IMG/VR virus record: IMGVR_UViG_3300026097_001055 | Location: 1 to 64,000 of that record | Direction: 5' to 3' (one strand) | Source of the DNA: a virus | DNA: 64,000 bases | Shown here: positions 1 to 35,358 of the stretch, piece by piece | How positions within the stretch are numbered: position 1 is the stretch's first letter | Layout: every line of letters begins with the position of its first letter | The notes under the pieces: generated by a model | The model's database searches: none | What the model was told of the DNA's origin: nothing | What the model saw: only the letters and a program-made list of their open reading frames with translations | Made by a program: the position numbers and the translations under genes

Positions 1-1006
1 GTATAACTGCTTGATCATCAGGATTTAGACGTAATAATCTTCCAATTCTTTGTGAACTCTTACGCTCATTGCCATAAGAATGAAGAATCAAACCTTGCCT
101 AAGATTAGGTATGTTTATACCTTCACTCAATTGCAATACACAACTTAATTCTTTTATCTGACCGGTTTTAAACAATTCTAAGTTTTCTTCAGAGCTATCA
201 TTTTTACTATGATAACTATGTGAACAAAGCTTATCAGCTTGCTCTTGAGTGTTAGCAAAAATAATAAGCTTATCACCTGAGTTACTAATATGCTTTATAA
301 GTTTTTCAGCATATAACTCTTTACTTTTGTAAGTCATTAAAGCTTTCATTCTCATAATACTGTTTATTTGCTTTTCTTTAGCACTAAATGAATTGTAAAG
401 CCTGTTTGTCCAATAAGCGTAATTATCTTTTTCAGATGTCCAAAAACTAGGTTTAGTTTTTAATTTAACTTCAACATTTTTTATGGTACCTAGTTTAAGT
501 TTATGAACTATTATTTTATAATCATTTAATAAATCATCACCAACTGCTTCATCTACTAAATAAGTATATCTAATTGGACAATACTTAGCAACTAATTTAG
601 CTTTATCAGTATAATGTCTAACTGGTGGTGTACCTGTTAAACCTAATATCAAACCATTGTAATTACTAAGAAAAGCTTCATGGCTTTTTAACAAGCTGTG
701 ACATTCGTCAAGAATAACAATATCATAATCTCCAGGATCATGTTTAGATAAACTTATATATGTACTATAGTCTGCATTATATAGCAACTTATCTAGTTTA
801 TACTGCTCAGCTTGATTTTTCCATTCTTCAAAAACAGAACGTTTAGGTGCCACAATAAGCACTTTTTTCTTTAATGAACTAAAGTGCTTTTCAATATACA
901 TTAAACCTAATCTGGTTTTACCCACTCCTGTACCTAAAGCAACACCACTGCAGCGGTGACCTAAAATGGTACCAAGAGCCTTTTCTTGTACTTGATCTTT
1001 AGTCAT
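1..1006 (-). CDS. SF2 DNA/RNA helicase (partial, C-terminus beyond window)
   Basis: The reading frame starts at an ATG at 1006 and is open to the window edge, giving 335 codons of the N-terminal part. It shows a Walker A loop GTGVGKT (residues about 25-31), a DECH box (100-103), motif III-like TGTPP (124-128), and near the window edge the motif VI-like string QRIGRLLRLNP. These are the hallmarks of an ATP-dependent superfamily 2 helicase of the phage UvsW/DEAH type, expected to unwind replication or recombination intermediates. It is the last gene seen of the leftward block, 11 bases after the preceding stop. Family is sure; the exact role is inferred. Confidence 0.9.
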   Translation of the reverse strand, partial: MTKDQVQEKALGTILGHRCSGVALGTGVGKTRLGLMYIEKHFSSLKKKVLIVAPKRSVFEEWKNQAEQYKLDKLLYNADYSTYISLSKHDPGDYDIVILDECHSLLKSHEAFLSNYNGLILGLTGTPPVRHYTDKAKLVAKYCPIRYTYLVDEAVGDDLLNDYKIIVHKLKLGTIKNVEVKLKTKPSFWTSEKDNYAYWTNRLYNSFSAKEKQINSIMRMKALMTYKSKELYAEKLIKHISNSGDKLIIFANTQEQADKLCSHSYHSKNDSSEENLELFKTGQIKELSCVLQLSEGINIPNLRQGLILHSYGNERKSSQRIGRLLRLNPDDQAVI

Positions 1007-3776: not shown

Positions 3777-4061
3777 TTAATGCCTATAAAGAGCTAAAGC
3801 TTCTTTATCACAAGGAACTAACTTTTGTATTAGTTCTTCATTCTGTAGCTTATTACCCATTTGTGTTACAAATTCCTCACCTTTTTCTTTCCAATGTACA
3901 TAGATAGCCCAATCATGAATTTCACCACGTTTTGCTACCCATAACAGTTCCTTACCTATATTTTCATTAGTCATATAAAGATCATCAGGTGAGTTTATAG
4001 ATACACCTACTCTAAATACTGTACCTGACGGTAATAATTCTAATTGTTTTTTATTTAACAT
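3777..4061 (-). CDS. Hypothetical protein, 94 aa
   Basis: A small protein with the stretch GTVFRVGVSINSPDDLYMTN and the segment RGEIHDWAIYVHWKEKG. The pattern recalls a family common in Bacteroidetes phages, but I cannot name a function. It ends 2 bases before the HNH gene start and begins after a non-coding gap next to the cassette-like region, so it may be the first gene of the leftward run down to the helicase. Confidence 0.72.
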   Translation of the reverse strand: MLNKKQLELLPSGTVFRVGVSINSPDDLYMTNENIGKELLWVAKRGEIHDWAIYVHWKEKGEEFVTQMGNKLQNEELIQKLVPCDKEALALYRH

Positions 4062-4106
4062 ATTTCATTGACTTTTGACATTGTTTAAATTTTTAAATTG
4101 TTCTTA

Positions 4107-4124
4107 GCGATGAGTTAGGCAACA
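4107..4124. repeat. attC-like core copy (GTTAGGC) overlapping a stop codon
   Basis: GTTAGGCAAC at 4114-4123 is the inverse of GTTGCCTAAC at 4378-4387. On the minus strand the stop codon TAA of the small gene ending at 4115 lies inside GCCTAAC. In integron cassettes a gene often ends within or just before the inverse core site RYYYAAC, so the layout is cassette-like. I see no convincing partner core further left. Confidence 0.4.
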
Positions 4125-4369
4125 TTTAGAATATCAATCAAGTCTTCTAAATTGCAGTCGCCATTCCACAAAGAGTATTGTAAACATTTGTCATCTAAAA
4201 AAGTAAGTTGGTCATTTATATTAGCAAGTTCTGTATAGTCAAATACATTTACCTTAATACATTTAACAGGCAAGTGTTTTGAGTATTCTTTGCTTACACT
4301 TATTTTGTATCGTAAGTTTGCCAATACCCTTTGTTCCAAATCTCTGTATTGTAATTTTAAGTTTTCCAT
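4115..4369 (-). CDS. Small orphan protein in cassette-like unit, 84 aa
   Basis: Translation is best started at the ATG at 4369 (MENLKLQYRDLEQ), because codons further upstream run into the inverted-repeat element. The product is unrecognised, with a C-terminus LWNGDCNLEDLIDILNVA. Its start is 4 bases after one attC-like repeat and its stop lies inside a second copy, so the gene occupies the unit almost exactly. This suggests a mobile or recently acquired small gene. No function can be assigned. Confidence 0.6.
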   Translation of the reverse strand: MENLKLQYRDLEQRVLANLRYKISVSKEYSKHLPVKCIKVNVFDYTELANINDQLTFLDDKCLQYSLWNGDCNLEDLIDILNVA

Positions 4370-4372
4370 AAT

Positions 4373-4420
4373 AAAACGTTGCCTAACAAAGTGTATAAGC
4401 AATAGCCGTTAGGCGTTTTA
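4373..4420. repeat. attC-like inverted repeat element 1
   Basis: GCCTAAC (4381-4387) and GTTAGGC (4408-4414) are perfect inverted copies separated by 20 bases; outer AAAAC (4373-4377) and GTTTT (4415-4419) extend the pairing. GCCTAAC/GTTAGGC match the integron consensus RYYYAAC/GTTRRRY. The element is shorter than classical attC sites and lacks clear inner L-boxes, so a cassette recombination role is only a suggestion. It lies just upstream of the 84-aa gene. Confidence 0.5.
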
Positions 4421-4506
4421 AATTATTGCAGTTGTTAATATTAAATTTTGTTATTCTAATCAAGGTCAGTGTAGGCTACTACCCATACACAAACCGTAGC
4501 ACAATA

Positions 4507-4743
4507 CTAAGTTAGCATCGTTAGCATTTGCTGTCTATATTTTTCAGCATCATTTTTACCGTATTTTTTTAAGGTTTCTAAGGCTTTAAATTCTTCGTCA
4601 TACCCAAGTTTTATTGATGCGGTAACACCTTCTAAATCTGTTCTTATTTCGACATCATAGCTATCATCTTCATTATTGTAATTTAAGGTCAATAAAACTT
4701 GTTCGTCGTTTTCTAATTCAATCAATTTCGCAAATTTACTCAT
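4507..4743 (-). CDS. Small orphan protein in cassette-like unit, 78 aa
   Basis: The chosen start gives MSKFAKLIELENDEQVLLTL; an in-frame ATG at 4752 would add three residues. The acidic protein resembles small orphan proteins of Flavobacteriia in style, but I know no function. Immediately upstream (4755-4787) is a second attC-like inverted repeat, nearly the same as the one before the 84-aa gene. The two genes therefore look like tandem cassettes in the same orientation. Confidence 0.6.
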   Translation of the reverse strand: MSKFAKLIELENDEQVLLTLNYNNEDDSYDVEIRTDLEGVTASIKLGYDEEFKALETLKKYGKNDAEKYRQQMLTMLT

Positions 4744-4752
4744 TTCGTACAT

Positions 4753-4790
4753 TACCTAACAACGTATATAATCTATTGCTATTAGGGATT
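4753..4790. repeat. attC-like inverted repeat element 2
   Basis: CCTAAC (4755-4760) and ATTAGGG (4781-4787) form an imperfect inverted repeat. Read on the minus strand this element and element 1 align over about 38 bases: CCTAA, GCWATWG, TTATAYAC and GTTAGG are shared in the same order and spacing. It abuts the start of the 78-aa gene. Confidence 0.45.
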
Positions 4791-4819
4791 TATTTAAACG
4801 TTAATTATTATTTATTTTT

Positions 4820-4843
4820 AAAGTGGTCGAATTTGACCACTTT
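4820..4843. other. Perfect hairpin between cassette region and RNA region A
   Basis: AAAGTGGTC (4820-4828) pairs perfectly with GACCACTTT (4835-4843) around a 6-base loop. It is followed by GCATTTTTA on the plus side and by an A-rich stretch on the minus side, so it is not a classic terminator. It may end transcripts or mark the border of the RNA region. Confidence 0.45.
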
Positions 4844-4979
4844 GCATTTTTATACGCAACATATCATATACAAATCACGTTACCCACCATTAAGAAGTGA
4901 GTCTTCGCCCTGTTGAGTGAGTTATCTGCACAATAGTGCAAATATACTTTAAATAAATAATCCATGTTTGTTTATAAGT

Positions 4980-5290
4980 TCTTCGCATTAATATCTTGCG
5001 TAAACAACCTGGTATTAACTAACGTAGAGCTACCAGAACTTTCTCTCTACTACATAGATTATTAGCACCATCTATAAAGCTGAGACCAACATTCTCATTA
5101 AACTATTTTGTATAGCTCACTTTATAAATGGTCAAGAAGTAAATATGGGTCTTTCAAGGTTACTGCATTAATGAGAGGTTAACCTTTACCTATAATCTCA
5201 ATTTAATCAGCTTTACCATTACTTCTTTGCTGTGAACTCCCATAACTATTATTCTGACTTATCACTATACATTCAGTAGTTATCCTATAC
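4980..5290. ncRNA. Structured RNA region A (gene-free, many nested stems)
   Basis: No reading frame of note lies between 4753 and 5310. The stretch holds many complementary pairs: GTAGAG 5024-5029 with 5045-5050; TAGAT 5055-5059 with 5070-5074; TATAAAG 5073-5079 with CTTTATA 5120-5126; AGAAGTAA 5135-5142 with TTACTTCT 5219-5226; AACTA 5244-5248 with TAGTT 5277-5281 enclosing CTGA/TCAG. The part 4871-4979 contains only one clear hairpin (TGCAC-AATA-GTGCA near 4928). Transcript strand is unknown but neighbours are leftward. It ends just beside the HNH homing endonuclease gene, so it may be one half of an intron-like or large phage RNA. I could not match a named RNA family. Confidence 0.45.
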
Positions 5291-5310
5291 ATTACTGTAA
5301 GGTTTTAATA

Positions 5311-5832
5311 TTAAGGCTCAGAGGGTTTGAGTTCCTGTATTCTTGCTAATATTTTTTCATCTTCATCGAAATAATGAATAAAATCTCTATCCGCTTGAGC
5401 TTCTTCTAAAGTTTTTCTAGTTTGGCAACAATGCCTTTTACTATTTACTCTAGCATAAGCTCTGTAGTTCGTTTCATTTTTGTATTTTAATGCTTCAATA
5501 CAAAATGTTTCAGATTTATCTTTTCTATTATGTCCATTGATTCTATTGGTAACAGTTCTTAAATTTTCTATTTTATTGTTAAGAGTATTATTATCAATAT
5601 GGTCAATTTGAATGGACAAGTCTTCAAAATTACCATTAAAATAAATCCATATTAATCTATGAACCCTGTATCTAACACTTTTAATTTGAGTAATTAAATA
5701 TTTATGTCCATGTTGTCCTACTTTAGTAGGAGTACCAATGGGTTTATTTGTAGTTTTTCTAATTAAATTACCGTCTTTGTAGTAAAATAAAGACTTTAAT
5801 TCTTGTTGTGATATACACTTTTTTGCTTTCAT
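5311..5832 (-). CDS. HNH homing endonuclease
   Basis: Started at the ATG at 5832 (MKAKKCISQQELK), since codons upstream lie in the non-coding region. The 173-residue protein has the typical phage homing-type HNH core: HRLIWIYFNG, then QIDHIDNNTLNNKIENLR and NRINGHNR (about residues 75-125), with an N-terminal DNA-binding part and a C-terminal extension. Such enzymes cut intron- or intergenic-less alleles and spread with their element. Both sides are flanked by highly structured gene-free DNA (regions A and B), which fits an intron ORF or a mobile intergenic insertion. Confidence 0.88.
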   Translation of the reverse strand: MKAKKCISQQELKSLFYYKDGNLIRKTTNKPIGTPTKVGQHGHKYLITQIKSVRYRVHRLIWIYFNGNFEDLSIQIDHIDNNTLNNKIENLRTVTNRINGHNRKDKSETFCIEALKYKNETNYRAYARVNSKRHCCQTRKTLEEAQADRDFIHYFDEDEKILARIQELKPSEP

Positions 5833-5902
5833 ATTATTTATTTTATACAAAGATAATAAAAATACACTTATAAAACAAATGTTAAGTGTAATAATGTACA
5901 AC

Positions 5903-6417
5903 AAGAGTAGCCATTTTTCAATCTATTGACTACTCTTTCAACCATATCACAATACAGTTGGTACACTTGATAGATTTAATATGTAAGTCCATTTAACACT
6001 CTCCACGAGGAATTATACTTGTTACAGTTTATATTCTATCTTTTTTTAGTGAACATGAGGGGATTTCTCCAGCCGTGAAGCACAAGGAATAAGGTTTAAC
6101 CTATATTTTAATGTTAAAACAACTCTGTTCATTTCCAAGTGGAATATAACTGTGGCAAAGATAATAATCTCCACTGAATCCATACATAATCATATCTTAC
6201 AATAAACAACGTACACTTGGCTGTACTATAATTCTCCTGTTAGCCTTCAAATTCCTTGAAACTACAGCTTTCATGTAGTGCAGGAGCGTTACTGTTTATC
6301 TTCAGCAGAGTTGTTTTAATTTTTTAATTTTAAAGAAAACAACAGCTTCATTTATACTATCTATCTCAACTTTACCAAGGTCTTTAACCTACTGAAGAGT
6401 TTTCACTGTTGTTTTAT
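5903..6417. ncRNA. Structured RNA region B (large multi-branched domains)
   Basis: About 500 gene-free bases contain long perfect pairings. TTAAAACAACTCTG (6114-6127) pairs over 14 bases with 6306-6319 and encloses a branched domain: AGTGGA 6138-6143/6170-6175, GTACA 6211-6215/6222-6226, and CTCCTG 6234-6239/6281-6286, which itself holds two hairpins (TTCAA/TTGAA and ACTACA/TGTAGT). A second domain is closed by AAAACAACAG (6336-6345) with 6406-6415 and inner CTTC/GAAG. At the left, AAGAGTAG 5903-5910 pairs with 5930-5937. Nested junctions like these indicate a folded RNA and not random sequence. The family is unknown to me. Confidence 0.5.
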
Positions 6418-6421
6418 TATT

Positions 6422-7144
6422 TTAAAGGTTTTCTTCAATCCATTTATTGAAAGATTTTAAATCTTCATACCCTCCAACATAACTACTATCCCCAATATGT
6501 TCTCTATATAAAGAAATTAATTCTTCAACTTCCTCTCTATTATACATTTTCTTCTCTACTGGGTGTATTTTAATAGTATTGTGAGAATCTGTTTTGATTT
6601 TATACTCCCAATCATAAATAACTTCTCCAAATACTATTGGCTCAACTTCAACCAGCACTTCATCAATACCTCCTGCTTTGCAGTAAGCTTCAATAAATGC
6701 TTGAGATGGTTGAGGTAAACTTATACCATTTAAATTTTCTTCAATGGTAATATATTCTTTAGTTAAATCTTTACCTGATTTAATTTTTAAAGAACTATCA
6801 GTTGTAGCAATGATTTTTTTACACTCATCTCTCTGTCTTTCAAATGTAAAATCAATTTTATTGCATTTGTAGGTGATAGGTGTATCGGAGGATAAGTACA
6901 AAAACCAATCACCTTCTTCAATCTTTTCATCTGTTATGATATAAAGCTCAAAAGGTTGTATGTGAAATCCATAAGACTTATCATCTTTAAATGCGTCTTT
7001 ATTTGGTTGCAACTTTATTTCAAAAGAATTATCTTCCAAATTGATTAACTTACACATATTACCTCTTTCAGTAGGCAACATAATTACCTTTGCTTTAATA
7101 CAAGGTTTATCCTTATACATTATTATTTTAGTATTCGTTTCCAT
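6422..7144 (-). CDS. Hypothetical protein, 240 aa
   Basis: A soluble protein with an N-terminal beta-rich part and the string KKIIATTDSSL followed by LPQPSQAFIEAYCKAGG. This combination recurs in uncharacterised proteins of Bacteroidetes phages and prophages, but no function is known to me. The C-terminal 40 residues (EEVEELISLYREHIG ... FNKWIEENL) are amphipathic and may bind a partner. It starts 31 bases after the 80-aa gene. Confidence 0.75.
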   Translation of the reverse strand: METNTKIIMYKDKPCIKAKVIMLPTERGNMCKLINLEDNSFEIKLQPNKDAFKDDKSYGFHIQPFELYIITDEKIEEGDWFLYLSSDTPITYKCNKIDFTFERQRDECKKIIATTDSSLKIKSGKDLTKEYITIEENLNGISLPQPSQAFIEAYCKAGGIDEVLVEVEPIVFGEVIYDWEYKIKTDSHNTIKIHPVEKKMYNREEVEELISLYREHIGDSSYVGGYEDLKSFNKWIEENL

Positions 7145-7175
7145 ATTGTTTAACTTTACTTTGTTAATAATTTGT

Positions 7176-7418
7176 TTATTTAGATTCCTCTCTTTTAGCT
7201 TTTGCTAATTCTTCAAAGTATTCTTGATATTCTTGTTTCCATTTATAGTAAATTTCTACACCATCTTTTAAAGAAAATTTGCCTTTTAATTTTTTCAATC
7301 GTTCTTGCAGCCTAATAATTAAATCTGCGTGTTGGTAATTTATTCCAAGTTCAGCTATATTACAAGCCATTCTTAAGAATTCTATTTCTTCTTTTCTATC
7401 TTTGATTTCTACATTCAT
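7176..7418 (-). CDS. Hypothetical coiled-coil protein, 80 aa
   Basis: A small, highly charged helical protein (LIIRLQERLKKLKGKF in the middle, FEELAKAKREESK at the end). It is unrecognised. It sits between the 240-aa gene and the frameshifted zinc-ribbon gene in the same leftward run, with only 1 base between its start codon and the preceding frame's stop. Confidence 0.68.
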   Translation of the reverse strand: MNVEIKDRKEEIEFLRMACNIAELGINYQHADLIIRLQERLKKLKGKFSLKDGVEIYYKWKQEYQEYFEELAKAKREESK

Positions 7419-7419
7419 T

Positions 7420-7648
7420 TTATTTATTTAATTTATATAATACAAGTACTAAACTATCAAGATTACATTTAACTGTAGTTCCTGTAGATATTTCTTTTAC
7501 TTGTATTGTATCTTGATTAATCAGAATAAGTTCATATCCACTTTTTACCGCAATTTTTGCATTTATAAAATTCTTTGGTTTTTGCCATTATGTTTTTACA
7601 ACATGGAGAAGAAGGGGATATATTAAAGAATAAAAAAAGTGCTTTCAT
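7420..7648 (-). pseudogene. Small zinc-ribbon gene broken by a +1 frameshift
   Basis: From the ATG at 7648 the frame reads MKALFLFFNISPSSPCCKNI, then MAKTKEFYKCKNCGKKWI and stop. A second frame continues as SGYELILINQDTIQVKEIST and on to VKCNLDSLVLVLYKLNK, ending at 7420. Removing one base from the A5 run (plus-strand T5 at 7542-7546) joins both into a 75-residue protein with CKNCG and GTTVKC elements of a zinc ribbon. It is either a real mutation, a slippage site or a sequence error. The inner ATG at 7588 is an alternative start. Confidence 0.55.
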
Positions 7649-7748
7649 AATTTCTAAATTTTAAGATTATTATTTTGCAGAATAACTTTACTTATTTTAT
7701 GAGTAAATGTTTCTGCTTTTTTTAATTAATCAAATGCCCACCAGATAT

Positions 7749-8087
7749 TTAAATGTCATGATCACTGTCCATTTCTAAAGCCTGATTCTCCTCTAAATAT
7801 TGTCTATATTGGTATAGTTTATTAAGTTGTGAGTAGTTTTCTTCTAACCATTCAAACAACTCAGTAGTTTTCCTTAATAATTGATCAAGTGGGCTTTGTA
7901 TGTGACCATCTTCATTTTTTTCAGACATTATATCTTTAGGTGTGCCAACAGCCATAGCTGTTAACTCTTTCTTTGTAGATTCAATATAACCCTCTATCTC
8001 TTTTATTTTTTCATCTAATTCATATCTAGTATGAAATAACTGTCTATTCAAATAAATTTCTGTTGTGAATACTGTTCCAAATCCCAT
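7749..8087 (-). CDS. Hypothetical coiled-coil protein, 112 aa
   Basis: The N-terminus MGFGTVFTTEIYLNRQLF is followed by long charged helices (ELDEKIKEIEGYIESTKKEL; EWLEENYSQLNKLYQYRQYL), giving an elongated coiled-coil protein. The pattern looks like a family shared by many phages of this kind, without a known job. A strong terminator lies just upstream, so it starts its own unit or depends on read-through. Confidence 0.72.
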   Translation of the reverse strand: MGFGTVFTTEIYLNRQLFHTRYELDEKIKEIEGYIESTKKELTAMAVGTPKDIMSEKNEDGHIQSPLDQLLRKTTELFEWLEENYSQLNKLYQYRQYLEENQALEMDSDHDI

Positions 8088-8120
8088 AATAATTAATTTT
8101 AATTTAGTATTTTAAATAAT

Positions 8121-8147
8121 AAAAAAAGAGGGCAGTTAAGCCCTCTT
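8121..8147 (-). terminator. Intrinsic terminator
   Basis: AAGAGGGC (8126-8133) pairs perfectly with GCCCTCTT (8140-8147) around AGTTAA and is followed on the minus strand by seven T residues (8127-8121). It lies 3 bases beyond the stop of the 166-aa gene and should end that leftward transcript. Confidence 0.85.
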
Positions 8148-8149
8148 AG

Positions 8150-8650
8150 TTAATTTGTTTTTAGTTTAGGTAAGAATTTAGGATCATCTTGAATAGTTAA
8201 TTCAAAGAAGTTTTTAGGTAATATTCCTTCTTCAACAAAAAGATTAGCAATATCATTTTTTTCTATACCTAAATCTTTAAAACTAAGTGTATTTAATTGC
8301 TTTTCTTCAAAGTCATTAACAGAAGCTAAGACCCTTAAAACATTACTATTAGGAAATAAGGTTAATAAAAAATCATCACAGTATTTCTTAGTAAGTTTAT
8401 GCTTATAAACATTTAATATTCTTTGAGCTCTGTAAAATACATTATTTATACGTTTTTTCTTAGCCGTACACATTTTTTTAATTTCATCTTGTGATAGTCC
8501 TTTTAAACCATACAATGCTCTTTTATATAAATAGTTTTGATAACTATTAAAATGATCTTGTTGATAATTAACATATGTAGGTTCATTTATTTTTTGATAC
8601 TTACTGTTATGTAATTCTACTTTTTTGTTTAAATAAATTTCTTGTTTCAT
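8150..8650 (-). CDS. Hypothetical basic protein, 166 aa
   Basis: Start chosen at 8650 (MKQEIYLNKKVELHNSKYQK) and not at an earlier codon in the spacer. The first two thirds are rich in Lys, Arg and Tyr (AKKKRINNVFYRAQRILNVY), suggesting nucleic-acid binding, while the C-terminus is acidic to neutral. The family was not recognised. It is flanked by terminators on both sides, so it probably has its own promoter in the 8651-8730 spacer. Confidence 0.7.
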   Translation of the reverse strand: MKQEIYLNKKVELHNSKYQKINEPTYVNYQQDHFNSYQNYLYKRALYGLKGLSQDEIKKMCTAKKKRINNVFYRAQRILNVYKHKLTKKYCDDFLLTLFPNSNVLRVLASVNDFEEKQLNTLSFKDLGIEKNDIANLFVEEGILPKNFFELTIQDDPKFLPKLKTN

Positions 8651-8688
8651 GATCGATATACATTTAATTATTAATAAAAACAATAACA

Positions 8689-8714
8689 GAGAGGGACACG
8701 AATGTCCCCCTCCA
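8689..8714 (-). terminator. Hairpin terminator after the 157-aa gene
   Basis: GAGGGACA (8691-8698) pairs with TGTCCCCCTC (8703-8712, one bulge) around a CGAA loop. On the minus strand it follows the 157-aa gene and is succeeded by a T-rich stretch (TTATTGTTTTTATT). Good intrinsic terminator. Confidence 0.75.
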
Positions 8715-8730
8715 TTATTTATATAAAGGA

Positions 8731-9204
8731 TTATCCTTCAATATCAAAACTTGCATTAGCTTTTACTGTCTTATTTGCATTAGATGCAGCATAAGCCTCA
8801 CGTAATTCTTCAACATTATCATGTTGTACAAGTGTATCTTCAGCATTGCTCATTGCAGTGTACTGAGTTCTACGGTAAATAGGTTGTCCTTCAACAGAAC
8901 AAACAATACCTGTATCACCAGCAATTTTTAAGTCACGTTGAGGATCTTTTTCATTAAATGGAGTCAAAGACTCTTTTACAATGATTTGCCCCTGTAACTC
9001 TTGACCTGCATGAAAGTTAGCCATTTCAAGTTCTTCAACTTTTCCTGGAATTAATGCAAACACTTTACGTGCACGCAAAAACCCGTTATCATCAAACATA
9101 GTACGTGTTTGTTGAACTCTTACATACCCAAATTCAGGGTTGTTTTCTGAAACATTGATTACTTGACCTGCCTCATTTCCGATAACTTTTACTTTAGTTC
9201 CCAT
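8731..9204 (-). CDS. Conserved phage protein, 157 aa, possibly DNA-binding
   Basis: A beta-rich protein (MGTKVKVIGNEAGQVINVSE; FGYVRVQQTRT; ARKVFALIPGKVEELE) with a C-terminal acidic tail (SFDIEG at the very end). Its codons are less AT-biased than its neighbours and it is bounded by its own leader and terminator, which suggests high expression. Small highly expressed beta proteins with acidic tails in phage early regions are often single-stranded-DNA-binding proteins, but I see no decisive motif, so this is only a possibility. Confidence 0.7.
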   Translation of the reverse strand: MGTKVKVIGNEAGQVINVSENNPEFGYVRVQQTRTMFDDNGFLRARKVFALIPGKVEELEMANFHAGQELQGQIIVKESLTPFNEKDPQRDLKIAGDTGIVCSVEGQPIYRRTQYTAMSNAEDTLVQHDNVEELREAYAASNANKTVKANASFDIEG

Positions 9205-9302
9205 AACTTTTAATTTTTAGAAGTTTATAAATAAATAATTGAATTCTGTGGGTAGAAAAATACTATATCTAACAACCTACCCAAGGTTGTTAAACGAGTC
9301 AC

Positions 9303-9329
9303 ATTTATAAAATGATCAGTTTTATAAAT
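9303..9329. promoter_or_regulatory. 27-bp near-perfect palindrome upstream of the 157-aa gene
   Basis: ATTTATAAAA (9303-9312) and TTTTATAAAT (9320-9329) are perfect inverted copies around TGATCAG. Nearby (9240-9300) two overlapping hairpins, TGGGTAG/CTACCCA and AACAACC/GGTTGTT, lie in the leader of the 157-aa gene. The palindrome is a plausible repressor operator or the terminator of the 90-aa gene. Confidence 0.45.
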
Positions 9330-9346
9330 TATATATTAATTGGATC

Positions 9347-9619
9347 CTATAAATCTAAATCATCATAATTATCTTCATAAGAAAGATTATTATGAATATC
9401 TTCATCTTTTAGATCATCTGGTAGATAATCTTTATCAAGAGTTTCATCTGAAGCATCTTGTTGTCTTAACGGTTTATCATGTAATGCGGAATCAAAAAAG
9501 GGAGAAAGGTTTGAACCTGCTTTAATAGCTACAAGATACTGTATATCATCATCTGAAAGATTCAAATACTCTTCTATTGTTAGGTAAATAGTTTTACCAT
9601 TAGGTAAATTATACAGCAC
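9347..9619 (-). CDS. Hypothetical acidic protein, 90 aa
   Basis: Begins MLYNLPNGKTIYLTIEEYLN and continues LSDDDIQYLVAIKAGSNLSP; the C-terminal half is very acidic and Asn-rich (DEDIHNNLSYEDNYDDLDL). The N-terminal pattern recalls a small protein found in several large Bacteroidetes phages, of unknown role. An antisense frame at 9340-9525 is only a shadow. Confidence 0.7.
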   Translation of the reverse strand: MLYNLPNGKTIYLTIEEYLNLSDDDIQYLVAIKAGSNLSPFFDSALHDKPLRQQDASDETLDKDYLPDDLKDEDIHNNLSYEDNYDDLDL

Positions 9620-9706
9620 TTTTTTTTATTTAAGTTATGTAAATATATATTTATTAATTAAATACACAAAAACATTATTTAAATATTTTCTATTATATAG
9701 CAAACA

Positions 9707-9734
9707 AAGGAGAGTAAAATAAAATACTCTCCTT
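9707..9734. terminator. Bidirectional-looking hairpin terminator
   Basis: AAGGAGAGTA (9707-9716) pairs over 10 bases with TACTCTCCTT (9725-9734) around an 8-base A/T loop. GTTTTT follows on the plus side. On the minus strand it stands downstream of the two small membrane-protein genes and should end their transcript. Confidence 0.7.
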
Positions 9735-9763
9735 GTTTTTCACCTTAAATTAACCGATCATGA

Positions 9764-9919
9764 TTAATTTTTTGGAGTCATGAATATAAAAGCTGTTAAT
9801 ACAGCCGCCATACAACTTGTATAGCTTATCATAAACCATGGATAATCTAAATAATAACTAACTAATGATAGTAAGAAAGCTAATAAAGCTAAACTTATAA
9901 TTGCAATTTTATTCATCAT
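9764..9919 (-). CDS. Small membrane protein, 51 aa, two spans
   Basis: Two hydrophobic segments (IAIISLALLAFLLSLV and MAAVLTAFIFM) separated by YYLDYPWFMISYTSC suggest a two-pass membrane protein. The start ATG at 9919 overlaps the TGA of the upstream 59-aa gene (ATGA), so translation is coupled. Function is unknown. Confidence 0.65.
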   Translation of the reverse strand: MMNKIAIISLALLAFLLSLVSYYLDYPWFMISYTSCMAAVLTAFIFMTPKN

Positions 9920-10095
9920 GATTTATATTTTTCACTGTTAGGTGCCATTACACCGGCAAACCAAAATATAAAACCTATTGTAAACATTACAGCACTAGCA
10001 CCGTAATTAACTGTTGTTACAAGTACATAACCTGCAAACCAACCAATCAGTGCTAAGCACATCATTGTGTAAAAATAACCTGAATACTTTTTCAT
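9916..10095 (-). CDS. Small membrane protein, 59 aa, two spans
   Basis: MKKYSGYFYTMMCLALIGWF begins a protein with two membrane segments (about residues 8-27 and 34-50) and a short polar tail. It overlaps the next gene by four bases (ATGA). The pair forms a mini-operon between structured region C and a terminator. Such phage membrane pairs may alter the host envelope; no specific role can be read. Confidence 0.65.
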   Translation of the reverse strand: MKKYSGYFYTMMCLALIGWFAGYVLVTTVNYGASAVMFTIGFIFWFAGVMAPNSEKYKS

Positions 10096-10142
10096 TTTTT
10101 TTTTGTTTTTAATTAATCATATACATATATAAAGAACCACAT

Positions 10143-10857
10143 TTAAAGATTAACCATACAATCTTTAATTTCATTCCGTGCTGGTCACTTGGAATATGTG
10201 GGATAAATTTCTGGATAAATAATGTAGTAGTGATTTACTTGCGCTCCGGAAGTCACTAGATTATGGAGATACTACATTATTAAATAACCTTTGCACGCAG
10301 TTGTATGTGCTCGGAAACTTAATCCACTACACTATATGCTATACAACTGCTCACTAATGTGAGTTAGTGCAAAGGGTTATTAATTAGAGCAAGAGCCTCG
10401 GAATAACATTCCTTACTCCTACAACTAAAACTCTTATAGATAATAGTAATAGATATAGATATAGATAGAACATTTTTCTATTCATATGCTAGTCTTACCA
10501 ATGTTATGTAATAGTTGTTTGAACTAATTACAGGGAGAATGCTTTATCCTCTTATACCTGCTATATATCTACTACAATGGGAGTTATAAGTACTAAATTC
10601 AAGTGTTTGTTGAGGTTAATATATGAGGGGGTGTGTTATACCACACAACTCACTCACACTTAAAAACTCTTAATATTTCTATTCAAACCCATTAAATGTT
10701 TAAATCTTAACACTTTTTCAATAACATTTGTCTCCCACACTGGAGAACTTTAGACTCAACTACTGATAATCAACCCATTATAACTTGTTAAATCCTTAAC
10801 AGGGTTAATATTTAATAAGCAATATAAACCGTAACAACAGCTTATATTACTTATTAA
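10143..10857. ncRNA. Structured RNA region C (about 715 bases, gene-free)
   Basis: No gene fits between 10096 and 10875. At least ten stems occur in order: 10143-10151/10160-10168 (9 bp); ATTCC/GGAAT 10173-10195; AATAATGTAGTA 10218-10229/10270-10281 (12 bp); a two-part stem 10283-10296/10367-10381 enclosing GCAGTTGTAT 10297-10306/10341-10350 (10 bp); 10465-10481; TGTAAT/ATTACA 10507-10532; GTGTG/CACAC 10631-10646 extended by TGAG/CTCA; TCTCC/GGAGA 10731-10746; TGTTAA/TTAACA 10786-10801; and a 15-bp stem with one mismatch 10812-10857. CTCC 10244-10247 can pair with GGAG 10265-10268 as a pseudoknot inside the third domain. This is what large ornate phage RNAs such as GOLLD or ROOL look like, but I cannot confirm membership. 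Confidence 0.5.
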
Positions 10858-10875
10858 TGAAGACACTTAAATAAC

Positions 10876-11043
10876 TTAAATAACTATACTATCTTCTTCT
10901 TTAATAGCAAGCTTTAACTCTTCTTGTAACTTAATAGCATTATCTAATCCATTATTAACAATAGATTCAACATCACTATTTTTTAATTCAACACCGTACA
11001 AAGCACGTGTTAAATCATTGATGGCATTAATAATTCTTTTCAT
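10876..11043 (-). CDS. Hypothetical helical protein, 55 aa
   Basis: Small acidic helical protein (MKRIINAINDLTRALYGVEL at the start, LQEELKLAIKEEDSIVI at the end). Not recognised. It is preceded on the minus strand by a 32-base element shared with the 190-aa gene, probably a common promoter. It is followed by structured region C, so the RNA may be co-transcribed with it. Confidence 0.6.
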   Translation of the reverse strand: MKRIINAINDLTRALYGVELKNSDVESIVNNGLDNAIKLQEELKLAIKEEDSIVI

Positions 11044-11116
11044 GATCGTGTTTTTTAAAGATTAATAAATTATTTCTTGATATCAACTACCAGTGAGCTA
11101 ATAGCGTAATAGGTGA

Positions 11117-11148
11117 TATCAATTAAAATTAAGTATAATAAGAATGAT
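11117..11148 (-). promoter_or_regulatory. Shared 32-base promoter-like element, copy 1
   Basis: This segment matches 11793-11824 at 31 of 32 positions. Both copies lie upstream of leftward genes (starts at 11043 and 11772). Conserved core on the plus strand: AATTAAAATTAAGT then TAATAAGAATGAT. A duplicated upstream element of this kind is best explained as a promoter or activator site. Confidence 0.5.
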
Positions 11149-11155
11149 TTTTTTG

Positions 11156-11191
11156 AAAAAAAAATGCATGCTCCTGTAAAGGAACATGCAT
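11156..11191 (-). terminator. Intrinsic terminator after the 190-aa gene
   Basis: ATGCATG (11164-11170) pairs with CATGCAT (11185-11191), with CTCC/GGAA partly extending it. On the minus strand a run of eight or more T follows. It is only a few bases past the stop at 11200. Confidence 0.8.
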
Positions 11192-11199
11192 ATTTGATG

Positions 11200-11772
11200 T
11201 TATTTAACATCAAGCTTCTTGTCTGCTTTTGCAGATGAGAAGTTAGTGCCAAACTGCAAAGAGCTTTGCTCTTTCTGTTGGGCAGCAAGCCTTGCTTGCT
11301 TACGCTGAGTTAAAGCTTCAGTCATGTCAATGATTGTAGCTTGCTCTGCTTCTGCAATTGCCTTAGCAAGTGCAGCCTTATGAGTTGAGTCTGTAGCTTC
11401 AGCTAAGGCTTTACTCTTAAGGTATTGTAATTCCAAATCCTCGTCAGAGGTTGTTGGGATTACATACTGGCCTGATGCAATCTGGACAGCTTCAATTACA
11501 GTTGAGGTACCCTCACCTGTAATTCCTTCAAACTTGTGGTTTGAAGTTACTCTTACAGAACCATCTTCTTGAAGTGGTGTGTAAGTGTCAGTAGCGTTAG
11601 CGCTGACATATGCATCTTTATCTTCTTGAGATAAAAATGCTGCTTCATAAAGGAACTTAGTAGTTACTTTATTAAGCTTAGTGATTTCCTCTGTAAGAGG
11701 GTTAATCACTTCTTCTACAGAGGTTCTTTTGTAAGAACCTTTGTAGGTAAGTTGAATTTTGAGCTTGCTCAT
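11200..11772 (-). CDS. Conserved hypothetical protein, 190 aa, probably highly expressed
   Basis: Begins MSKLKIQLTYKGSYKRTSVE; the first half is Thr/Val-rich beta, the second half Ala-rich helical (LAEATDSTHKAALAKAIAEA, then RKQARLAAQQKEQ). Codon use is richer in G and C than the surrounding genes. It stands first after the divergent control region with its own promoter-like element and terminator, as expected for an abundant early protein. I do not recognise the family. An overlapping frame at 11070-11288 is a shadow. Confidence 0.72.
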   Translation of the reverse strand: MSKLKIQLTYKGSYKRTSVEEVINPLTEEITKLNKVTTKFLYEAAFLSQEDKDAYVSANATDTYTPLQEDGSVRVTSNHKFEGITGEGTSTVIEAVQIASGQYVIPTTSDEDLELQYLKSKALAEATDSTHKAALAKAIAEAEQATIIDMTEALTQRKQARLAAQQKEQSSLQFGTNFSSAKADKKLDVK

Positions 11773-11792
11773 AATTTAAAATTTAATTGATT

Positions 11793-11824
11793 TATCAATT
11801 AAAATTAAGTGTAATAAGAATGAT
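11793..11824 (-). promoter_or_regulatory. Shared 32-base promoter-like element, copy 2
   Basis: Copy 2 of the element at 11117-11148, with one mismatch. It ends 20 bases upstream of the start of the 190-aa gene. The adjacent palindrome AATTGATTTATCAATT (11785-11800) overlaps it and may serve as an operator. Confidence 0.5.
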
Positions 11825-11962
11825 GCATAGCATATGCATTATGTATATTATCTATTCAATTTTATTGAATGGATTATGTACATATATCACATGCAATAGC
11901 ATGTGCAATGAGGGGGGTACCCCGAGTTGAGACAGGCCCAGGGGGTCTGTTGGTAGGGACCT
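11825..11962. other. Hairpin cluster with GC-rich patch in the divergent region
   Basis: Within the gene-free stretch 11773-12231 several perfect hairpins follow each other: ATGCATA/TATGCAT near 11823-11839; TATGTA/TACATA enclosing ATTCAAT/ATTGAAT around 11840-11885; and CACATGC-AATA-GCATGTG around 11889-11906. Then comes a GC-rich segment (about 11911-11961) containing GGGGTACCCC and AGAC...GTCT pairings, strikingly unlike the AT-rich surroundings. It could be part of a replication origin, a structured 5' leader, or a protein-binding region. Confidence 0.4.
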
Positions 11963-12067
11963 ATCACATACCTTCATACAGTTTCTAAAAATTACCCATC
12001 ACATACTCTTACATAATCCCTAAAATTATCCCATCACACACCCTCATACAATCCCTAAAAAATACCC
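11963..12067. repeat. Three tandem 35-bp direct repeats (iteron-like)
   Basis: ATCACATAC or ATCACACAC recurs at 11963, 11998 and 12033, exactly 35 bases apart, each followed by YYTYATACARTYYCTAAAA-like sequence (the middle copy is slightly altered). The array sits between the leftward and rightward gene blocks. Tandem repeats in this position suggest binding sites for a replication initiator or a transcription regulator. Confidence 0.6.
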
Positions 12068-12164
12068 AAAATAATTTTTTTAAAAAATACAATCAGGATT
12101 TATAGGTTATATGTGTAAGATCATTTATATTTGTCATTCCTTGTTTCCAATTTACTTTAGGTAC

Positions 12165-12198
12165 AAAAATAGGATCATCGTTTGGTGGTCCTATTTTT
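12165..12198. terminator. Perfect 10-bp hairpin with T-run in the divergent region
   Basis: AAAAATAGGA (12165-12174) pairs perfectly with TCCTATTTTT (12189-12198) around a 14-base loop. It overlaps the -33 part of the rightward promoter. It might insulate the rightward operon from transcripts starting further left; a TATATTTG box at 12126-12133 could start such a transcript. Confidence 0.5.
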
Positions 12199-12211
12199 AT
12201 TTATATATTTG
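12181..12211 (+). promoter_or_regulatory. Bacteroidetes-type promoter TTTG-N19-TATATTTG
   Basis: TTTG at 12181-12184 and TATATTTG at 12204-12211 are separated by 19 bases, matching the known Bacteroidetes consensus (TTTG/TTG at -33 and TAnnTTTG at -7). It lies 20 bases upstream of the first rightward gene, so host RNA polymerase probably starts the rightward block here. Confidence 0.65.
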
Positions 12212-12231
12212 TAAAAACAAAAACCAAAAAA

Positions 12232-12405
12232 ATGAAAGAATTATTAAGTGTTGGGATTAATGAAGATGGTGCTATTATGGTGCAGTCTAGTTTACCAAAA
12301 GAGGATCTAAAAACTCTACTAAGTGAATTATTAGAGAATATAGATGAAGGAAAGACTATTGATATAGAGTCTGATGATAATGATAAACCTAAATATCTAG
12401 CATAA
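12232..12405 (+). CDS. Hypothetical acidic protein, 57 aa
   Basis: First gene of the rightward block, starting after the leader AAAACAAAAACCAAAAAA. The product is a small acidic protein (SLPKEDLKTLLSELLENIDE) of unknown role. Its stop codon overlaps the next start by one base (TAATG), so the two are coupled. Confidence 0.6.
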   Translation: MKELLSVGINEDGAIMVQSSLPKEDLKTLLSELLENIDEGKTIDIESDDNDKPKYLA

Positions 12406-12846: not shown

Positions 12847-13090
12847 TAGACCGGAAGAAAAAAAGTCTAACATAGAAATATCAGATGCTCAACAAAGAGA
12901 ACTTGATATGCAATTAATGAAACAGTGGACTAAACTTACTGTATTTGAGGTAGGGGATGAAGTGGATACAATTAATGCCGGGGATAAGGTATATGTGTAT
13001 GTTAATTCGTTAGCTAATGCTGAGGTACTTGAAGTAGATGGATCTAAAAAAATGATTGTATCTCTACCTGAGATAGTAGTTGTTTGGTAA
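12839..13090 (+). CDS. GroES-like co-chaperonin
   Basis: The 83-residue product has the layout of the Cpn10/GroES fold: an N-terminal strand MLNRPEE, a mobile middle, then FEVGDEV, a turn NAGDKVYVYVN, the strand AEVLEVDGSKKM and a closing PEIVVVW. In GroES the GDKV and final I-L-A-V strands have the same order. A phage GroES would dock on host GroEL to assist folding of the capsid or another large phage protein. The sequence is divergent, so the assignment rests on pattern. A strong terminator follows. Confidence 0.6.
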   Translation: MLNRPEEKKSNIEISDAQQRELDMQLMKQWTKLTVFEVGDEVDTINAGDKVYVYVNSLANAEVLEVDGSKKMIVSLPEIVVVW

Positions 13091-23446: not shown

Positions 23447-23961
23447 TAGTAAAATTATTTGACCTACAAAATGGTAAAATAGTGCCTTCAGAACATTGTT
23501 ACACTATGGGCACATTAAAAAACATAATGGATAAATATCCGGAAGATCATCTTAAGATTTATCAGTTCTTATTTTATATGACTTGTCCTGATCCAGATTC
23601 TAATCCTTTCTTTCATGTACCTCATGCAGATAAAGAAATATTAATATTTAATGAATTAGATGCTGAATTCTCTACAGAAGATGAACTTATTAGAAGAGCT
23701 TTAGGATTTTGTGAAACTTTATATGAAACTCCTATTAAAAGAGCTTATGATGGTATAAGCAAAGCTTTAGATAGAATTGCAAACTACATGGCTACGACAC
23801 CTATTACTGATGGTAAAGATGGTAATATAGGTCAAGTAAGAGCAATGGCTAAAGATTTTGAATCTATTAGACAATCTTTCAAAGGTGCTTATAAAGATCT
23901 TCAGGATGAACAAAAGTCTAGAATTAGAGGAGGTGGATCTATGGCTTATGATCAGAAATAA
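23443..23961 (+). CDS. Putative small terminase subunit or packaging partner, 172 aa
   Basis: The gene lies between the nuclease and terL, overlapping both neighbours by a few bases (ATGA at 23443; TAATG at 23961). The C-terminal half is conserved-looking: RALGFCETLYETPIKRAYDG, ATTPITDGKDGNIGQVRAMA and FKGAYKDLQDEQKSRIRGGG. TerS proteins normally sit here, but no clear helix-turn-helix is visible, so TerS is a positional guess. Confidence 0.65.
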   Translation: MIVKLFDLQNGKIVPSEHCYTMGTLKNIMDKYPEDHLKIYQFLFYMTCPDPDSNPFFHVPHADKEILIFNELDAEFSTEDELIRRALGFCETLYETPIKRAYDGISKALDRIANYMATTPITDGKDGNIGQVRAMAKDFESIRQSFKGAYKDLQDEQKSRIRGGGSMAYDQK

Positions 23962-26900
23962 TGGAAGAATTTATAATAGACATTCCTACTTGGGATAAGG
24001 GTAATTGGACCACAACTACTTTTAATTCTCTAGAAGAATTTAAAGAATATATACTTTCTATATTTAAACTTCCTGGTCAATACAAATTTAATAAAGATTT
24101 GTTAGAAGTAACTAAACAAGAAGCTTTTAATTTTGAAAAAAAAGATTACTATTGCACTAAGCCTTTTATGTCTAAAGATTATGTGGATTATTGGGATTTT
24201 GAAAAAGCTAAATGTAGAAAAGGCTTGATAGTTAAATCAGGTAAAGATTCTTGGTTTATTACTAGAGATTACTACATGTGGTTAAACTTCCTACCTATCT
24301 TTGATAAAGAAAAAACTAAGTTTGGTTTTGCTAAATTAAGAGATGCTCAGTATCACATGGCTCTATATGAACTATTAGCTGAGCTTCATCATAAACATGC
24401 TGCTATTCTCAAAAAGAGACAAATAGCTAGTGAACAACCTCATAGTGAACCTGTATTAGGAGAACACGGGTGGACAACTATGGGTGCTGTTCAACCAGGA
24501 GATAAGTTATGGAACCCTGACGGTACCCTTACTACAATTTTACATAAATCAAATAATGGAGTAAGTGACGTTTATGAATTTACTTTTGGTGATGGTAGAA
24601 CTACACGTTGTGGTATAGAACATAACTGGGAAGTTTATGATAAAGCAGCTAAAAAAACAAAAGTATTAAATACTAAAAAACTTTTAGAAATAGGGATATT
24701 TTCAACACCTGTTAAAAGTAATAAAAAAATATATAATAATTATAGATTTGCTATTCAGACTTGTAAGCCTATAGAATTATTATCATCCCCTGTTCCTGTT
24801 GACCCTTATGTATTAGGAGCTTTATTAGGAGATGGTTATATAAATAATAGATCTGTTTATATATCTGGAGCTGATCAAGAAGTATTTGATAATATTCAAA
24901 ATAATCTAGGCACTGATTATCTTTTAAAAGAAACAGGTTATATGAAACAAAGCATAACCTATAAGAAAAGATTTACACATACTGGTAAAAAATACTCAAA
25001 TGATCAATATGGTGTAAACCCATTATTAAGAGAGCTTATTAAATTAGGTTTAGGTAATAAAGGTAAAAATACTAAGTTTATACCAGATTGTTATAAAACA
25101 TCTTCTATTAAAGATAGGATAGCTCTTATACAAGGAATGATGGATACTGATGGTTATGTAAATGCTCAAGGTAATGATTTACATTTTACTAATGTAAATA
25201 AAAGACTAATTGATGATTTTACAGAAGTTGCTAGATCTTTAGGTTTAAAAGTAAAATTAGATACTAAAGAAAATAAAAACGGTTTATTTTATAGAGCACG
25301 TATATCAGGTGATATTCAATTTGATATATTTAAACTTACTAGAAAACAAGAAAGATTTAATAAAAGAAAAAGTAAAACAACATTTACATTAGTTCCGATA
25401 ACTAATATAACTAAATTAGATTATCAAGAACAATCTTCATGTATAGTAGTAGATAATCCTAATCATTTATATATTACTAGAGATTATATAGTAACTCATA
25501 ACTCGTACTTTCATGCAGCTAAACTTATAAATCAACTTTGGTTTGAAGAAGGTGTTACTCTTAAAATGGGTGCCGCTCTTAAAGATTATATAAATGATAA
25601 AGGTACATGGAAATTTTTAGATGAATATTCTAACTTTTTAAATGAGCATACAGCATGGTATAGACCGCTTAATCCTAAAAAAGTATTAATGTGGCAACAA
25701 AAGATTGAAGAAAAAGTAAATGGCCGCTCTAGAGATAAAGGATTAAAAGGAACTATACAAGGAATGTCTTTTGAAAAAGATCCTACAAATTCAGTAGGGG
25801 GTCCAGTTAAATACTTTTTTCATGAGGAAGCAGGTATTGCTCCAAAGATGGATCAAACTTATGAATACATTAGACCTGCTTTAAAATCAGGATTTGTAAC
25901 TACAGGTTTATTCATAGCTGCAGGTTCAGTTGGTGACTTAGATCAATGTGGTCCTCTTAAAGATATGATTAATCATCCTAAAGCAAATGATATATATGCA
26001 GTAGAAACTAATCTTATTGATGAAAAAGAAACTATAGGTCTATCAGGTTTGTTTATTCCGGAACAATGGTCAATGCCTCCTTATATAGATGATTATGGTA
26101 ATTCTTTAGTAGAAAAAGCTTTAAAGGCTTTAAGTGAACAATTTGCTGAATGGAAAAAAGATCTTACTCCAGAACAATATCAATTGCGTATATCTCAGCA
26201 CCCAAGGAATATTAAAGAAGCTTTTGCTACAAGAACTGTATCAAAATTTCCACAACATTTATTATCACAGCAAGCTGAAAGAATTAGAGAAAAAGAATAT
26301 GCTTATGAATTTTTAGACATCTTTCAAAATGCTAAAGGTGAACCTGAAGTTAAAACTACTAACAAGATTCCAGTATCTGAATTTCCTGTATCTAAAAAAG
26401 CAACTGATAAAACAGGTGCATTAGTAGTATGGGAAAGACCTGTAGAAAATCCAGACTTTGGAATGTATTTTGCATCTATAGATCCCGTGGGTGAAGGCCG
26501 CACAACTACTTCAGAATCACTATGTTCCATATATGTATATAAACGAAAGATTGAGGTAACTAAAGTCAATGGTGATGAAGTTACAACCTATGTAGAAAGA
26601 GATAAAGTAGTTGCTGCATGGTGTGGTAGGTATGATGATATTAACACCACTCATGAAAGACTAAGACTTATTATAGAATGGTATAATGCCAAAACTCTTG
26701 TAGAAAATAACATATCTCAGTTTATAAACTATATGATAGGTATGAATAAACAAAAATATTTAATAAGAAAAGATGAAATGGTTTTTCTTAAAGATTTAGG
26801 ATCTAATAGTACAGTATATCAAGAATATGGTTGGAAAAACACTGGTAGATTATTTAAAGATCATTTACTGAGTTATGTTATAGAGTATGTTAAAGAAACT

Positions 26901-27236
26901 ATAGATGAAAAAACTAAAGATGACGGTACTGTAGTTAAAAAAACTTATGGTGTTGAAAGAATTCCTGATCCTATGCTTATAGTAGAAATGCAAGCTTATG
27001 AAGAAGGTCTCAATGTTGATAGATTAGTTTCTTTTTCTGCACTTGTTGCTTATATGAAAATACTTGAATCTAATATGGGTTTGAAGAAAAGAATAGAAAA
27101 AGATGATGCAGCAAAAAAATTGGAAAAGTCAGAAAATTTGTTTAAATTGAATAAGAGTCCCTTCCGTCATGTAGGTAATTCTAATACTGTTTACGGAAAG
27201 AAAATTAAAAGAAGTGCGTTTAAAAATCTTAAATAA
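23961..27236 (+). CDS. terL: Large terminase subunit (TerL) with in-frame intein
   Basis: The 1091-residue product is the packaging ATPase-nuclease. Residues 1-156 and 515-1091 are TerL; residues about 157-514 are an intein inserted within the ATP-binding (Walker A-like) motif, so splicing would restore KKRQIA-SYFHAAK. Walker B-like KYFFHEEAG lies at about 617-625 and the nuclease begins at FASIDPVGEGRT (Asp841), followed by VENNIS and a C-terminal acidic cluster region. Without the intein it is 733 residues, a usual TerL length. Self-splicing should be needed for activity. It overlaps the preceding gene by one base and ends 5 bases before the portal. Confidence 0.92.
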   Translation: MEEFIIDIPTWDKGNWTTTTFNSLEEFKEYILSIFKLPGQYKFNKDLLEVTKQEAFNFEKKDYYCTKPFMSKDYVDYWDFEKAKCRKGLIVKSGKDSWFITRDYYMWLNFLPIFDKEKTKFGFAKLRDAQYHMALYELLAELHHKHAAILKKRQIASEQPHSEPVLGEHGWTTMGAVQPGDKLWNPDGTLTTILHKSNNGVSDVYEFTFGDGRTTRCGIEHNWEVYDKAAKKTKVLNTKKLLEIGIFSTPVKSNKKIYNNYRFAIQTCKPIELLSSPVPVDPYVLGALLGDGYINNRSVYISGADQEVFDNIQNNLGTDYLLKETGYMKQSITYKKRFTHTGKKYSNDQYGVNPLLRELIKLGLGNKGKNTKFIPDCYKTSSIKDRIALIQGMMDTDGYVNAQGNDLHFTNVNKRLIDDFTEVARSLGLKVKLDTKENKNGLFYRARISGDIQFDIFKLTRKQERFNKRKSKTTFTLVPITNITKLDYQEQSSCIVVDNPNHLYITRDYIVTHNSYFHAAKLINQLWFEEGVTLKMGAALKDYINDKGTWKFLDEYSNFLNEHTAWYRPLNPKKVLMWQQKIEEKVNGRSRDKGLKGTIQGMSFEKDPTNSVGGPVKYFFHEEAGIAPKMDQTYEYIRPALKSGFVTTGLFIAAGSVGDLDQCGPLKDMINHPKANDIYAVETNLIDEKETIGLSGLFIPEQWSMPPYIDDYGNSLVEKALKALSEQFAEWKKDLTPEQYQLRISQHPRNIKEAFATRTVSKFPQHLLSQQAERIREKEYAYEFLDIFQNAKGEPEVKTTNKIPVSEFPVSKKATDKTGALVVWERPVENPDFGMYFASIDPVGEGRTTTSESLCSIYVYKRKIEVTKVNGDEVTTYVERDKVVAAWCGRYDDINTTHERLRLIIEWYNAKTLVENNISQFINYMIGMNKQKYLIRKDEMVFLKDLGSNSTVYQEYGWKNTGRLFKDHLLSYVIEYVKETIDEKTKDDGTVVKKTYGVERIPDPMLIVEMQAYEEGLNVDRLVSFSALVAYMKILESNMGLKKRIEKDDAAKKLEKSENLFKLNKSPFRHVGNSNTVYGKKIKRSAFKNLK
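24429..25502 (+). mobile_element. Intein with LAGLIDADG homing endonuclease
   Basis: About 358 residues. The N-terminal splicing block is SEQPHSEPVLGEHGWTTMGA then VQPGDKLW, with Ser157 as likely first residue; block B is TTRCGIEHNW; the C-terminal block is HLYITRDYIVTHN followed by Ser515 (+1). Between them are two LAGLIDADG motifs, LGALLGDGY (285-293) and LIQGMMDTDG (about 389-398), so the element carries its own homing nuclease. The inserted site is the most conserved part of TerL, as is typical for inteins. A Cys is absent at position 1, so the start could be one residue off. Confidence 0.88.
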
Positions 27237-35317: not shown

Positions 35318-35358
35318 GCTCCTCATGCCTCTTAACAATGCACACTTGAGGAGCCTTT
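35318..35358 (+). terminator. Hairpin terminator inside the basic-protein run
   Basis: GCTCCTCA (35318-35325) pairs perfectly with TGAGGAGC (35347-35354), then CTTTTAAT. It should end transcripts of the first three basic genes at least in part. Confidence 0.7.

Follow-up and report, generated by a model that had tools for sequence, protein, structure and literature searches.

Positions 10096–10875 of the window, the 64,000-nt stretch of DNA analyzed here, probably encode a large modular noncoding RNA of crAss-like phages that acts in trans. A probability of roughly 60% is given to this reading over a leader or a DNA site. Within these 780 bases lies one copy of a three-way junction, termed module 1, which defines a previously uncatalogued RNA family in phages; that this is a real family of structured RNA is close to certain. 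The stretch had been described as gene-free in an earlier note on the same DNA, and it indeed contains no open reading frame (ORF) of 40 aa or more.

The IMG/VR virus record that contains the window (G000) is 114,890 bp long. Its major capsid protein shares approximately 87–93% identity with its counterparts in many environmental contigs and is distantly related to those of Cellulophaga phages phi17:2 and phi4:1 and of a crAss-like gut phage, and its portal and capsid proteins match head families in PHROGs. Judged by these capsid relations and head-family matches, G000 is an uncultivated crAss-like phage, and we infer a host in the Bacteroidota. The gene strand is minus up to approximately 11.8 kb and plus from approximately 12.2 kb, and the cumulative GC skew reaches its minimum at this strand switch, near 12 kb. 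The block sits within the minus-strand gene series, with a 55-aa ORF (10876–11043, minus strand) directly on its 5ʹ side and a 59-aa ORF (9916–10095, minus strand) directly on its 3ʹ side. In L132, the closest locus by flanking protein, the 59-aa ORF has an 88% identical homologue and the 55-aa ORF an apparent homologue (5548–5730); the order differs, and the block is absent. An AT-rich stretch at 10096–10130, just upstream of the 59-aa ORF, recurs in several relatives and may be an early promoter or a translation-start context that they share.

Other parts of the window also drew attention. Two further gene-free folded blocks (4753–5310 and 5833–6421, more than 1.1 kb together) flank an HNH-endonuclease-like ORF (5311–5832, minus strand) and match neither Rfam, nor modules 1 and 2, nor any fetched relative. 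A large terminase-like ORF (23961–27236) carries an intein-like insert with homing-endonuclease similarity. At 35319–35354, a marginal match to the Rfam abiF RNA (37.1 bits at a threshold of 37) is probably a terminator hairpin between small ORFs.

As a whole, the block folds on the minus strand with a minimum free energy of −197.9 kcal/mol (z −5.8 against dinucleotide shuffles) and on the plus strand with z −4.3. The individual stems named in the earlier note are present, including the perfect 12-bp pairing 10218–10229/10270–10281 and the nesting in which 10279–10296/10367–10384 encloses the 10-bp stem 10297–10306/10341–10350. Further structures include a 9-bp hairpin near the 3ʹ end of the block (10143–10168, minus strand; perfect pair 10143–10151/10160–10168) and a 21-bp hairpin near its 5ʹ end (10807–10862, minus strand; arms 10812–10832/10837–10857; z −7.8, equaled by 0 of 200 shuffles). 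The proposed uninterrupted succession of stems did not hold, however: above-chance structure is confined to the two ends of the block (10201–10400, z approximately −4.2; 10701–10900, minus strand, z −3.9), 200-nt windows over 10301–10800 are unremarkable (z +0.2 to −1.8), and several of the 12 inverted repeats are mutual alternatives. Because the z-score of the whole block stems from its ends, and because a mostly coding stretch nearby (11101–11900) reaches even lower values (z −6 to −9), folding energy was not enough to decide the matter, which is settled instead by homologues with compensatory changes.

Such homologues were found among relatives sharing the capsid gene, whose syntenic zone was fetched for comparison. 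In one of these (L113), the zone holds a gene-free block of 1,568 nt in which a homologue of the window domain 10284–10374 occurs twice; the two copies differ by paired changes (TGCAC/GTGCA versus TGTAC/GTACA). A search pattern taken from their hairpin loop, YCNACCCTTGGGAAGTNGR, returned 58 contigs from IMG/VR, nearly all with the full domain, so that one pattern placed the module 1 family in approximately 54 viral contigs. The shared fold is a three-way junction of helices A, B, and C: helix A closes the junction, hairpin C carries a constant 9-nt loop, UUCCCAAGG, and the long arm B has a variable apex. In gene sense, the consensus reads UAA-UGCAC-CAUU-UCUAC-UUCCCAAGG-GUAGA-CAGUUGUAAUA up to the variable arm and UAUUACAACUG-A-GUGCA-GAGGGRU after it. 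The blocks of relatives are of comparable size and contain several such domains each. A family model, R1, was built with the window excluded and matches other phage contigs with up to 106 bits.

The junction is kept by compensatory changes. In 23 cores aligned with MAFFT, that is, without reference to structure, 96.2% of cells are paired and 10 of 21 pairs show double changes, a result reached in none of 500 shuffles; sliding the register drops the paired share to 23–51%, and RNAalifold recovers the identical junction unaided. A second sample, of 53 distinct sequences reached through module 2 (described below) and aligned to the model, toward which its percentage paired leans, shows double changes at 17 of 21 pairs and in 136 cells among the matches listed (0 of 500 shuffles). 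The covariation among homologous regions that the earlier note had proposed to look for is thus massive for module 1. Plain pairwise alignment of whole blocks barely exceeds shuffles or fails to, and outside the 91 nt of 10284–10374 the window block has no recognizable homologue.

The window copy is very probably a true member of this family. It is the sole R1 match in the whole G000 record (27 bits, E = 1.2e-5, minus strand) and folds to the junction with z −5.4, matched by 0 of 200 shuffles. Helix A is formed by 10367–10374/10289–10296, helix B by 10341–10350/10297–10306, and helix C by 10359–10363/10350–10354; the variable apical arm spans 10307–10340. All three helices are conserved almost letter for letter. 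Where the family has UUCCCAAGG and GAGGGR, the window has an AUUA loop and an AAGGUU tail, and a model search detected no module 2 in it, so that the window copy is a diverged variant that lacks the conserved loop, the putative partner tail, and module 2. Similar variants are second copies beside canonical cores in L172, L179, and L180; the window holds the variant only.

Across the family, most cores either have both loop and tail or lack both, which suggests a loop–tail pseudoknot that would be missing in the window variant. In the set selected by the loop, 50 cores have both, 4 have neither, and 2 have the loop only, with the tail in fact present on inspection in one of those 2 (L139). In a set not selected by the loop, the matches listed include 41 with both, 3 with neither, 4 with the tail only, and 2 with the loop only. 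Since the sequences are related, this co-occurrence is a lead and no proof.

On the 3ʹ side of the window's module 1 lies a domain closed by the 12-bp stem (10218–10281, minus strand; z −3.5 without a pseudoknot), for which homologues were not found. As for the pseudoknot previously proposed for it, CTCC at 10244 and GGAG at 10265 are present, and on the minus strand CUCC (10265–10268) could pair with GGAG (10244–10247) in the loop of UAGUGA/UCACUA as a candidate H-type pseudoknot. The recurring motif CTCCGGAA/CTCGGAA was likewise located, at 10244, 10310, and 10397 (the latter two previously placed at 10308 and 10395).

Upstream of many cores, mostly within 300 nt, lies a second element, module 2, of the form UACUCUCAUCCAAGCAGG...CAAGG-RUUGCAA-CCUUG-UGAGAGUA. 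Its helix also covaries (100% paired, four pairs with double changes, 0 of 500 shuffles), and 17 of 19 seeds have the palindromic loop UUGCAA. A scan of IMG/VR with the 3ʹ half of module 2, blind to module 1, yielded at least 120 stretches, and the association was counted over the 71 loci with a match to the module 2 model, R2, among the matches listed. Module 1 lies within 1.5 kb in 47 of these 71; in all 47 it is on the strand of module 2, and in 46 of the 47 it is downstream. Each module also occurs alone in other phages.

A third, short motif, around UUCCGGAA, favors the sense strand in the vicinity of cores (29 to 8), where it takes approximately the form GACAGUAAAUGCUUCCGGAA or GUUAGA..CAUAAUAAG.AUUUCCGGAAUU. 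It was seen in the blocks of L159, L162, L187, L134, L156, L113, L279, and L347, and its window counterpart is CUUCCGGAG at 10244–10252. As several instances are coding, it is kept as a lead.

Searches for known families and closer relatives gave little. Against Rfam 15, at gathering and at permissive thresholds, the block and canonical family members gave only chance-level matches, as did core and module 2 in short-query blastn against 50,697 deposited phage records. Direct blastn of the window block against deposited phages, the exact helix pattern in IMG/VR, and a search for relatives through the 190-aa neighbor protein returned nothing, and a loose stem descriptor proved too noisy. In bacterial genomes, 59 loop-pattern matches were all consistent with chance (at most 23 bits); the module 1/2 family was found only in phages. 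There is no tRNA cluster in the window, and no catalytic core of a group I or II self-splicing intron matched in Rfam at E values up to 5 over 4000–12400. With no Rfam match even permissively, no tRNA cluster, and massive covariation, the description of a structured RNA of no known family holds. The open-access literature, supplementary tables aside, yielded no description of the module 1/2 family.

The genomic position of module 1 is nearly fixed. In all 14 records that have both, the window included, it lies 1–5 kb upstream of, and co-oriented with, a homologue of the 157-aa gene at 8731–9204 (minus strand) of the window. Nearly all phage records with the element have a single locus, comprising one to three cores, and in one record a marginal extra match lies on the opposite strand; the element is therefore no dispersed mobile repeat. 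Many capsid-related records are without the family; most of those are fragments.

Several other RNA elements occur in the relatives. Hatchet self-cleaving ribozymes (Rfam, 79–81 bits) are found in L137 (6387–6553, plus strand), L171 (4453–4619, minus strand), and L189 (460–597, plus strand), in each case approximately 1.1–1.6 kb upstream of a module 1 core on the same strand; the window has none. A tRNA-like fold lies within the variable arm of module 1 in L172 (12576–12663; Rfam tRNA 47 bits, no call by ARAGORN), and just downstream (12900–12970) is a second degenerate tRNA whose anticodon loop is odd; odd tRNAs like these also occur in L180, L189, and L343. Genes for tRNA-Arg(UCU) lie within a few kb of the element in several relatives. 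ARAGORN calls a tRNA with anticodon CTA, which reads amber, at 10866–10955 of L175; it may have to do with the recoding of stop codons in crAss-like phages. The contig L138, which carries module 1, also has a tmRNA gene (69–403, minus strand; Rfam 100 bits).

The position of module 1 relative to genes bears on whether it might be a cis-acting 5ʹ leader with control over the translation or stability of the gene that follows. An ATG comes 29–55 nt after the end of module 1 in many relatives, as it would with a leader, and co-orientation with genes is nearly invariable: where readable, flanking genes of at least 70 codons run with the core, with one exception on one side. However, what directly follows the element varies widely, with genes from many unrelated families, an argument against its being the leader of any single gene. 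Moreover, there is one locus per genome, the tandem modules span 0.6–1.5 kb, and the window copy is separated from the next ATG by 188 nt that include another stem domain. A leader is thus unlikely.

A DNA-level element, such as an origin, packaging, or recombination site with hairpins extruding from single-stranded DNA, is more improbable still. It would fit pairs that are overwhelmingly Watson–Crick and a locus near the strand switch and GC-skew minimum at approximately 12 kb. The wobble pairs nevertheless favor RNA on the gene strand (minus in the window) over a DNA site: the sample selected through module 2 has 29 GU against 10 AC on the gene strand among the matches listed, the first set has 29 against 18, the surplus lying in helices A and C and the inner part of B, and module 2 has 5 against 0. 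In addition, the orientation of the element follows that of the genes, and its conserved loop is strand-specific.

An RNA decoy against host defense, for example a mimic of a type III toxin–antitoxin RNA antitoxin or of another RNA-sensing system, is improbable. In its favor are the tandem cores with a possible pseudoknot, the highly variable arms around a constant loop, and the accessory zone of the genome; phage escape from ToxIN via RNA mimicry is on record (PMC3475682). The family lacks a short tandem-repeat antitoxin array, its modules are long and mutually different, and it has no Rfam match. Least credible of all is a chance match in an ordinary AT-rich intergenic block, for although the window copy is without the conserved loop, tail, and module 2, and chance matches with the loop score up to 23 bits in bacterial genomes, it scores 27 bits without that loop as the best match in 64 kb and the only one in 114,890 bp, lies on the right strand in the syntenic place, and folds better than all 200 shuffles.

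The favored large trans-acting RNA would be transcribed from the minus strand together with its neighbors, as part of an operon near the strand switch, and the modules would be rigid pieces of this one molecule. The recurrent plan, the UUGCAA palindrome, and the tandem modules suggest a large RNA of rigid junctions and loop contacts. From their sequences, two contacts can be proposed: UUCCC of the module 1 loop may pair with GAGGGR in the tail, and the palindromic UUGCAA of module 2 may form a homodimeric kissing loop, for which HIV-1 offers an analogue in a six-nucleotide palindromic apical loop that dimerizes (PMC7357161). The outcome could be a compact RNA, possibly self-assembling, that would serve the phage during infection in the manner of GOLLD or ROOL; self-assembly as such is given perhaps one chance in a few.

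GOLLD is a phage-encoded, multi-domain RNA, in many cases longer than 800 nt; it often has tRNAs close by and sometimes carries them in a linker. ROOL is a large RNA of phages and prophages, 659 nt in an example studied by cryo-EM, that assembles an RNA-only cage. Both form such cages, and the function of both is unknown (PMC12286853). Since these are phage RNAs that are often near tRNAs and form RNA-only cages, the RNA described here, by analogy, would most likely work like them and belong to neither. Like GOLLD, several relatives have a nearby tRNA-Arg gene, and one core holds a tRNA-like fold. Unlike GOLLD, the new family occurs in crAss-like phages, matches nothing in Rfam at either gathering or permissive thresholds, and has a core of three-way junctions with UUCCCAAGG and UUGCAA loops, and the window has no tRNA. 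Block size is similar to that of ROOL, but the new family, known here from sequence, has no Rfam match to it. Other hallmarks of the two known RNAs are induction during lysis for GOLLD and very high abundance for ROOL. The large ornate RNA OLE forms homo-oligomers (PMC12286853); the new family differs in that it was found in phages alone, bacterial genomes giving no more than chance-level matches, and in that it has no model match. Structured RNA candidates from the human microbiome, predicted by comparison, include some in Bacteroidetes near phage genes (PMC8040213); they are mostly short motifs from human metagenomes, and in the main text, to which the comparison is limited, crAss is unmentioned.

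Structured RNAs of large size are a rarity in phages, and what they do is an open question. The new family adds another instance, unrelated in sequence. Its deep natural covariation, fixed genomic address, and clear modules make structure, assembly, and function directly testable, and it comes from crAss-like phages, which are abundant and poorly understood and whose gene-free blocks are otherwise overlooked. That the junction is constant while the arm is free in form, holding a tRNA-like fold in one case, points to a possible scaffold design. It is doubtful, yet conceivable, that the family represents a further class of phage RNA-only assemblies, unrelated in sequence to GOLLD and ROOL, in which junctions would be locked by loop–tail contacts, palindromic loops would form dimers, and arms would carry cargo such as a tRNA-like fold.
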